NCBI GenBank assembly: GCA_036971615.1
Contig: JAYKKR010000003.1
Coordinates: 1,674,001 to 1,738,000 of the forward strand
DNA from: Amyloporia xantha
Taxonomy: Eukaryota > Basidiomycota > Agaricomycetes > Polyporales > Adustoporiaceae
Reading direction: 5' to 3'
DNA length: 64,000 nucleotides
Shown: one piece after another, positions 18,287 to 20,650 of the stretch
Layout: every line of letters begins with the position of its first letter
How positions within the stretch are numbered: position 1 is the stretch's first letter
Notes under the pieces: model-generated
Databases searched by the model: none
The model's input: the letters and a program-made list of their open reading frames with translations, nothing else
What the model was told of the DNA's origin: nothing
Position numbers and translations under genes: made by a program

Positions 18287-20650
18287 ATGTCGATCACTCT
18301 CAACAGGTTCCCCGTGCTCCCTACGTCTCTCTACCCAGAAGACAATCTGGGCGGGCCGTCTGCTAGCATTGCTGGGTTCATATCCGGCTTTCGACGCGTG
18401 GCCCTTGAGAGTCCGGCTGTAGTTGCTTGCGTTCTCGTCAACATCGTGGTCGTCTACTATGTCGCGTCCTTCCTTATGAGCAAGGTCAGTTCGTTGTTAG
18501 CAACTTGTTCTCGATTCTCACGGGTTTTTTCTCAGAATGCTATCCCGCTGGTCGGTTATCCCCACTGGCTTGGTTCGTATGCCGGAGCCATGCGCTTCTT
18601 CGTGGATTCCAAGCGTATGGTCGACGAAGGTTATGAGAAGGTACGATGTGCCAAGTACCGGGAGCTATTCGTGGCTGACTATTCGCAGTACAAGGGCAAG
18701 TTCTTCCGGCTCTCATTATGGACTAATTTCGCGTACATAGTATCCGACGAGAAGTGCAGTGAGTCTAGTCGTATATGCTCAGACCCCACATAGCTAATGC
18801 ATGATCAGTCGAGGAGATGTACCATCTTCCCGACGATGTACTCTCCCTGAGATATGCCGCACACGATGTATGTGTCTATTCACTCATGCTAACCATTTAC
18901 TCACCTCCCAGAGCAGGAGCTAGCGGTCCCTTACACCATGGGTCAACAGATCCACGACAACCCTTACCACCTTCCCATTCTCCGAAGCAAGGTGGGTTCG
19001 CATTCTAGATCTTCCTACATTAAAGCTAAGCGCGAAATTAGTTCACCCGCCATATTGACTATTTGGTAGCCGAATGCTTGGATGAACTCACTATGTCAAT
19101 GGAGAACACTCTTGGCAAGAGTTGTGGCGGTATGCTACAGTCCTAATGAGTGGAACGTCAATTTGACATTACACAGACTCATGGCAGGAATTGAACTCGT
19201 TCGATGCCTTCACTGGCATTGTTGCTCGGACTTTCAATCGTATTCTTGTGGGAGCACCTACGTGTCAGTTCCCACAAAAACATGAGAATTGTCCAAGAAT
19301 GCTTACGTCTTATCATTGATTAGGCCGTAGCACTGACTACACAGAGACCTGCAAATCATTCGCTGTCAACACTTCAATAATTGGCCTGCTCATTAACCTT
19401 TTCCCTTCTTTCCTGCATCCGTAAGTCTTCCCTGTGCTATCATTTGAACTATTTCTTACCATTACACTATATAGTATCGTTGGCAGATTGTTCACACGGC
19501 TTCCTACTTTGTTGAGGCGTACTCTCGTTCACTTGGATCCCGTTATCGCCGAGAGGAAGGCGGCGATGGCAGAGCACGGCAAAGAGTGGGCTGATAAGCC
19601 GGTGCATGCGCTATCTTACTCGGTCCATTTCACGGAGGCTGACATTAGCTTTTACGCTAGATGGACATGCTAATGTGGCTCATGGAACAGGCTGAAGGTG
19701 TGGAGCAGGAGCCTGCACGCCTTGCCATAAGAGTTCTAGTCATCAATATTGCCACTATTCATACAACGGCATCGGTACGTAGAATGGTGTCGAGTGTACT
19801 ATGCTTTTCTGATCTGTCATTGAAGTCTTTCGTGCACGGCCTCAACAACCTGGTAGCACATCCGGAATATCAGGGACCTTTGAGAGAAGAGGCGGAGGCC
19901 GCACTTCACGCCCATGGGTGGACGAAGCAGGCAATCAATCAACTCGTCAAGTGCGACAGCTTCCTGAAGGAATCTTCACGGATGAACCCTCTCGGCACCA
20001 GTAAGACTTCTGTCTGATGTGGAAATGTGTCTCTGGCTAACGCGTTGACAGTGAGCTTCCCTCGCAAGGCTTTGAGGGATATCACTTTTAGCGATGGCAC
20101 CACCGTTCCCTCAGGCTCATACATCTCCTCGGCCTTCTCCGTACACTCTGATGAGGAGTACTACCCAGACCCGATGACATTCGACGGCTTCCGACATTTG
20201 TCTGACAGTGTGGCGGGTGCTCGCGCGAACAACAGCAGCGGCATGATTCGCACAAATTCTCGTTATCTTATCTTCGGTCACGGGAAATATCCTTGGTGAG
20301 TTGTTCCGTGTGTAAGAAAACTTGAGCCAAGTACTGATATCCTGATTTGAATAGCGTACGTGACGAAGTAAACGCACTACAAGCTCTTGCATACTAATTT
20401 GGTCGTTGTTGTAGCCTGGCCGTTTCCTTGCAACATACATCATGAAGGCCATCATGGCCCACCTTCTACTTAATTACGATATCAAGGCTAGCCCGCAAGG
20501 AAGACTGCCTGATATTCTTTTCATGTACAACAGCAGTCCGAACATCAGATCCACGTAAGTAATTTTCCGTGGTGTTCGCGTGCATATTTCGGTCCTGAAA
20601 ACATTGTTAACTTGGACAGATTTATGATTCGTCGGCGGAAGGTGGCATAG
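18287..20650 (+). CDS. Cytochrome P450 monooxygenase, 15 exons including a one-nucleotide exon
   Basis: Microsomal P450, 537 residues if the exon chain 18287-18484, 18536-18640, 18689-18758, 18809-18867, 18914-18991, 19042-19129, 19177-19263, 19324-19420, 19475-19601, 19661-19774, 19826-20000, 20052-20295, 20355, 20415-20554, 20620-20650 is right; the lengths sum to 1614 nt, a multiple of three. Features in order: membrane anchor at about residues 44-64 (VVACVLVNIVVVYYVASFL), I-helix ATIHTTAS, K-helix ESSR (ExxR), FDGFRH in the PERF position, and the heme loop FGHGKYPCPGRFLA. The heme cysteine codon is built from TG (exon 12), C (the one-base exon at 20355) and the next intron junction. The I-helix lacks the usual acidic residue, as in some fungal CYP families (CYP512/CYP5037-like by memory). 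The substrate cannot be told. No reductase lies nearby, so it depends on a CPR elsewhere. Confidence 0.93.
20355..20355 (+). other. One-nucleotide exon (C) in the P450 heme loop
   Basis: Upstream intron 20296-20354 starts GTGAG and ends TTTGAATAG, with TACTGAT as branch-like sequence. Downstream intron 20356-20414 starts GTACGT, has TACTAAT and ends TTGTAG. Both are 59 nt. With the single C kept, TG+C gives Cys and the next exon reads PGRFLATYIM. Without it, the joined exons read CLAVSLQHTS and stop. Confidence 0.75.

Follow-up and report, generated by a model that had tools for sequence, protein, structure and literature searches.

A predicted one-nucleotide exon in the heme-ligand codon of a P450 gene of Amyloporia xantha

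In a P450 gene of the basidiomycete Amyloporia xantha, the third base of the codon for the heme-ligand cysteine appears to be a coding exon of its own, one nucleotide in length. The gene lies in a 64,000-nucleotide stretch of contig JAYKKR010000003.1 (positions 1,674,001 to 1,738,000; hereafter the window, whose numbering is used throughout), and the nucleotide in question, C20355, would normally be included in the mRNA, between an older phase-2 intron and a second, phase-0 intron. We put the probability of this reading at roughly nine in ten. Splicing at C20355 itself we infer from four observations: the anatomy of the junction, the uniqueness of the splicing solution, the ordinary intron found at this place in paralogs and the breakage of related database proteins at the same codon. 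The exon had been proposed in an earlier reading of this DNA (the original prediction), which the present analysis supports.

Anatomy of the heme junction

The gene occupies 18287..20650 on the forward strand and, in our splicing model, consists of 15 exons encoding 536 amino acids. The translated protein matches the Pfam p450 family (E 1.5e-39), is 78% identical over 536 amino acids to its closest relative, the Rhodonia placenta protein P0001, and carries the helix K ExxR motif (as defined in PMC12940212) as ESSR within FLKESSRMN; the heme motif FxxGxxxCxG is present as FGHGKYPCPG, provided that the one-nucleotide exon is included. Exon 12 (20052..20295) ends, codon by codon, TTC GGT CAC GGG AAA TAT CCT TG, that is, FGHGKYP followed by the first two bases of the heme Cys codon, the last of them at 20295. 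It is followed by intron 12 (20296..20354; 59 nucleotides, phase 2, GTGAGT...TACTGAT...TAG), by the predicted exon 13, which is the single C at 20355, and by intron 13 (20356..20414; 59 nucleotides, phase 0, GTACGT...TACTAAT...TAG). Exon 14 (20415..20554) starts CCT GGC CGT, the Pro-Gly-Arg of the heme motif, and exon 15 (20620..20650) closes the reading frame with TAG.

All coordinates of this TG/intron/C/intron/CCTGGC stretch were checked against the window and agree base for base, and the two 59-nucleotide introns, donors, branch-like motifs and TAG acceptors listed in the original prediction match it exactly. At 20352-20361 the sequence reads TAG-C-GTACGT, with one base standing directly between the AG and the GT of the two introns. 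Donors, branch sites and acceptors are complete in both introns; the branch-like TACTGAT and TACTAAT each occupy intron positions 37-43, in the best candidate of each intron the branch-site adenosine is 17 nucleotides short of the 3' end, and intron 12 holds a second branch-site candidate, TCCTGAT. The idea that the first splice rebuilds the second donor does not hold, because that donor is already complete in the genomic sequence. With C20355 included, TG+C+CCTGGC gives Cys-Pro-Gly-Arg and the junction of the mRNA reads TTGCCCTGGC; joining 20295 straight to 20415, with the 119 nucleotides removed as one intron, would give TTGCCTGGC.

A dynamic programme for splicing, which scores donors, acceptors, branch sites and lengths, imposes no minimum exon size and was given the start and stop codons by hand, picked both 59-nucleotide introns and the one-nucleotide exon at all four of its penalty settings. 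The strictest penalty yields the 15-exon model with a coding length of 1611 nucleotides (536 codons plus stop), and weaker penalties add implausible extra introns elsewhere. The length previously given, 1614 nucleotides, is corrected here by one codon at the intron that runs from 18868 to 18916, the placement of which gives HDELAV in the protein, as is read in P0001.

Other solutions were sought by enumerating GT/GC-AG introns of at least 35 nucleotides that join the heme exon to the exon after it. None of the 63 single introns yields the heme motif and none keeps the frame open into exon 14, which bears out the claim that a single intron 20296-20414 is out of frame and means that no other acceptor restoring the frame was found among them. 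Exactly one of the 291 ordered intron pairs, 20296-20354 with 20356-20414, yields the motif, in agreement with the earlier statement that TG plus C restores both the cysteine and the frame. The one-nucleotide exon is the only one- or two-intron GT/GC-AG solution that restores the heme Cys. The sequence itself shows why: the base after TG is a G and the two bases before CCTGGC are AG, so that cutting out one continuous stretch can never produce TGY CCT GGC, and one pyrimidine from inside the interval has to be kept.

The same junction in paralogs and relatives

In the same genome, the pattern FGHG...TG|GTNNG, searched on both strands, matches in 17 places, 2 of which lack a P450 continuation and 15 of which are P450 sites. 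At 14 of these 15 (L062-L074 and L078, on contigs C1, C11, C23 and C55), one ordinary phase-2 intron splits the Cys codon and ends AG|YCCNGG, with CPGR in frame, whereas the focal gene reads AG|CCTGG at the same junction. The paralog introns are 54-140 nucleotides long, with 12 of the 14 falling between 54 and 76 nucleotides and the other two at 130 and 140. Since P450 genes with other spellings are not caught by the pattern, 14 of 15 describes a sample and not a census of the P450s of this genome; paralog locus L005 has no match to the pattern, and only a PGRFFA reading was found there. The comparison indicates that a phase-2 intron splitting the heme Cys codon is old in this P450 group, with intron 12 at the same place, and that the focal gene would carry an extra phase-0 intron one base downstream. 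As a separate observation on the assembly, several P450 matches score equally in two or three places (contigs C29/C33, C41/C50, C6/C16/C21 and C15), one 28-base match being identical on C29 and C33; these may be recent duplications or both haplotypes.

Relatives were compared as database protein models (154 proteins), and each protein search scored about 8000 candidates, so that the clade described here is a sample. The main tree holds 149 of 155 rows (P0151-P0154 and two rows with fewer than 290 residues after trimming were dropped) and was built after removal of the heme columns, with the query labelled odd by hand; P0001 stands for a cluster with 13 members. The query falls within a 30-row clade with a support of 100, a value obtained again in a 66-row IQ-TREE tree. 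Within this clade 23 of 29 database models are without an intact C-x-G motif at the heme junction, as against 4 of 84 models odd at the heme Cys codon in the sister clade (Fisher p 1.1e-14, computed ignoring the relatedness of the rows). Broken models are found in Polyporales (8/10), Agaricales (10/12), Boletales (2/2), Gloeophyllales (2/2) and Russulales (1/1), and among metagenome sources in 0/2; the order was looked up for five species, and the remaining species of the clade we take to belong to the orders under which they are counted. Within the clade the breakage is largely confined to this one place: insertions or deletions at the heme junction affect 22 of the 29 models, P0001 having a substitution (Trp) instead, and at nine of the twelve other junctions they affect 0-2 models of 18-29 each.

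The ways in which the models fail are informative in themselves. Five of the 23 read through from Cys into Val (P0003 CVCI, P0008 CVRIC, P0009 CVRVV, P0011 CVRT and P0018, which ends at CV), and the residue after Cys-Val, where present, is Cys or Arg in 4 of 4, which is the expected translation of a GTATGT/GTACGT donor right behind a completed codon. Eight place Trp, alone or with more residues, ahead of PGR (P0001, P0005, P0012, P0013, P0014, P0021, P0031 and P0130); Trp is present and PGR missing in P0004, and P0006 has neither. The heme exon is skipped, with a restart at PGR, in P0026, P0034 and P0121-P0123, while P0129 reads CPQPGR, P0023 continues past Trp without PGR and P0139 ends at Trp. 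The Q ahead of PGR in P0005 and P0129 fits CAG|CCNGG. P0018 and P0129, which agree at all of the 311 residues leading to the junction, represent one Termitomyces protein with two different failures. Taken together, the failures fit the layout of the gene in the window: a first donor at TG|GT, a second one as soon as the codon is complete, and an acceptor that abuts CCNGG. We infer from them the same two-intron structure in the DNA of the relatives. The clade-wide pattern makes a pseudogene or a base-call error less plausible and favours an old, conserved one-nucleotide exon.

Beyond the clade and its sister clade, six further rows are odd (P0119, P0145-P0148 and P0150, mostly metagenomic), reading HAW at the heme Cys followed by a stop or a run-on, as if they were unspliced open reading frames extending into an ordinary TG|GT intron. 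Because of these rows a Trp ending cannot by itself be taken as diagnostic (P0139 of the clade is of that kind), and the Cys-codon intron seems to reach beyond the sampled Agaricomycetes. Another model outside the clade, P0095 from Armillaria gallica, reads RHQWHVQ...SHSPGRF at the heme Cys junction, with a Trp and a long insert; it may reflect a separate anomaly of splicing or simply a faulty gene model.

Several observations weigh against an exon common to the clade. Three other junctions are also often disrupted, in 8/25, 12/29 and 13/29 models, although the last figure includes models ending before that junction. Six of the 29 clade models (P0002, P0007, P0010, P0015, P0020 and P0131) are intact at C-PGR. 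Two of them, P0020 and P0131, stem from contigs of 2392 and 1594 nucleotides that encode the protein without introns and read C-PGR, so that these contigs are probably transcripts; the other four may be ordinary in structure, or simply well annotated. Errors in gene models are also an indirect kind of evidence, and the relatives are not independent of one another, as the single Termitomyces protein behind P0018 and P0129 illustrates.

Alternative explanations and origin of the exon

The alternative that survives best, although we regard it as very improbable, is a pseudogene or damaged allele in which exon 14 has lost a base at its start, the 119 nucleotides form a single out-of-frame intron and the internal AG-C-GT is there by chance. 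Two of the 14 paralog introns are indeed equally long, and AG[CT]GT somewhere in the interval is a common chance event, seen in 57% of 20,000 dinucleotide shuffles of the 119 nucleotides. The single AG-N-GT of the interval, AGCGT at 20353, is nevertheless well placed and accompanied by signals, a combination that is rare in the shuffles: AG[CT]GT with at least 45 nucleotides on both sides occurs in 14%, the same together with a GTRNG donor in 1.8%, with a CTRAY branch site before AGYGT in addition in 0.35%, and with the two branch sites plus a pyrimidine ahead of the AG in 0.01%. Furthermore, the end branch of the query is short (0.095, against 0.18 for P0001, in the 149-row tree), the remainder of the 536-codon frame is open and the same codon is broken in most models of the clade, the last two points sustaining the earlier ranking of a pseudogene as the lesser alternative.

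Somewhat less probable again is another route to the cysteine, such as a minus-one ribosomal frameshift on UUGCCUGG once a single 119-nucleotide intron has been spliced out, insertion editing, or the use of non-canonical splice sites. A minus-one slip after UGC would read CCU GGC CGU and produce the correct protein, but the site is unlike the consensus of a slippery heptamer. The enumeration covered GT/GC-AG introns only, yet whatever the splice sites, one removal can never yield TGY CCT GGC, and none of these routes is necessary, two canonical introns being sufficient. We give hardly any credence to a base-call or assembly error concealing a true AG|CCCTGG and an ordinary intron: a run of C is a typical spot for a missed base, but this run is only three bases long, the interval contains two full sets of splice signals, and the same junction fails in relatives from other sequencing groups and five orders. 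Stwintrons, in which two removals take place at one site, are known from fungi, and two adjoining short introns in a filamentous fungus present a similar layout, but a nested scheme, with an inner intron that interrupts a splice signal of the outer intron and is removed in turn, amounts to one continuous removal; because this cannot give the Cys here, and because both focal introns are complete, with uninterrupted signals and one exonic base between them, a stwintron was rejected.

For the one-nucleotide exon, we propose that an old phase-2 intron splits the heme Cys codon as TG|Y and that a second, phase-0 intron lies one nucleotide further on, both being short, complete GT-AG introns with branch sites of their own. 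Removal would probably be sequential, as a single nucleotide hardly leaves room for two spliceosomes at once. With the second donor and the first acceptor both intact, the introns could leave in either order and yield the same mRNA; our proposal assigns neither of them to leave first.

The exon probably dates back to the ancestor of a P450 clade with members in five orders of Agaricomycetes, and we think it likely that it has been kept there since before Polyporales, Agaricales, Boletales, Russulales and Gloeophyllales split, having arisen when a second intron was gained one nucleotide 3' of the older intron that still splits the Cys codon of the paralogs. As the missed exon would supply the third base of a catalytic codon, most database sequences of this enzyme group would be wrong at the active site. 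Gain of a phase-0 intron beside the ancestral intron is the origin we prefer because 12 of the 14 paralog introns measure 54-76 nucleotides, as compared with a focal stretch of 119 nucleotides with two sets of signals; the two paralog introns of 130 and 140 nucleotides count against this preference. An alternative origin would be the loss of a base rescued by a cryptic exon, the scheme that Nelson and Syed propose for CYP621A (PMC12940212). Tandem duplication of an intron, at which the equal intron lengths had seemed to hint, was considered and is unsupported: with the splice signals set aside, an ungapped comparison of introns 12 and 13 gives identity at 7 of 42 core positions, fewer than the 10.7 that shuffles give on average, although an old, eroded duplication could escape detection.

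If this reading is correct, a Basidiomycota case would join the handful of one-base exons and would span five fungal orders instead of one genus, and the spliceosome would be able to retain such an exon for long periods at a codon that is essential. It would also provide a concrete cause for the way in which annotation turns many members of this P450 group into seemingly dead enzymes, with Trp or nothing at the heme ligand, an explanation open to checking against public data. With a natural series of species, one could test in which order the introns are removed and how well one-base exons are tolerated.

Other features of the window and comparison with known one-base exons

Elsewhere in the window, open frames match Pfam Glycogen_syn at 60120-61004 (+; E 3.8e-119) and Pkinase at 47192-47959 (-; E 6.2e-14). 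Two weaker matches, both under the curated cut-off, are CAP59_mtransfer at 55121-55888 (+; E 2.2e-06) and F-box-like at 34286-35743 (-; E 4.9e-04). The two longest open frames of the window, 38974-40950 (+; 659 codons) and 36987-38465 (+; 493 codons), have no Pfam match at E 0.001.

Among one-base exons, a mitochondrial case is reportedly present in placozoan cox1 (PMC5436844). The original prediction had called such exons exceptionally rare, with Arabidopsis APC11 as the precedent; APC11 stands, and the precedent is wider, taking in plant VPS55 and Fusarium CYP621A (PMC12940212). The Fusarium CYP621A exon, described by Nelson and Syed in February 2026, resembles the focal exon in several ways: it is a single base of a fungal P450 gene, stands between AG and GT, lies within a conserved motif and is essential to the frame; it too is missed by nearly all gene models, and the interval around it is over twice as long as a usual intron (PMC12940212). 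The base is a G, the middle of a Gly codon in a PKG motif, whereas the focal base is a C, the third of the heme Cys codon; the CYP621A exon belongs to Ascomycota and a single genus and is reported to have support from SRA reads in two species (PMC12940212), whereas the focal exon belongs to a different P450 group, in Basidiomycota, and is predicted from genomic sequence.

The one-nucleotide exons of plant APC11 and VPS55 likewise consist of one base between two introns and are usually unannotated; they have long been conserved, as the focal exon would be, but they lie in plant genes, at other protein positions and between longer introns, and were shown by RNA-seq and reverse-transcription PCR; that of APC11 is spliced accurately in protoplast constructs (PMC4674806 and PMC8831610). 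For APC11, Guo and Liu suggested intron definition combined with recursive splicing (PMC4674806). The P450 genes of Phanerochaete chrysosporium, likewise a basidiomycete, contain many very short exons as well as introns of 45-55 bp, and 6 bp is the shortest exon length given for them (PMC1184071). No one-base exon in Basidiomycota was found in the open-licence library searched, and the focal exon is apparently an independent and widespread addition to the rare one-base exons already known, placed at a catalytic codon.
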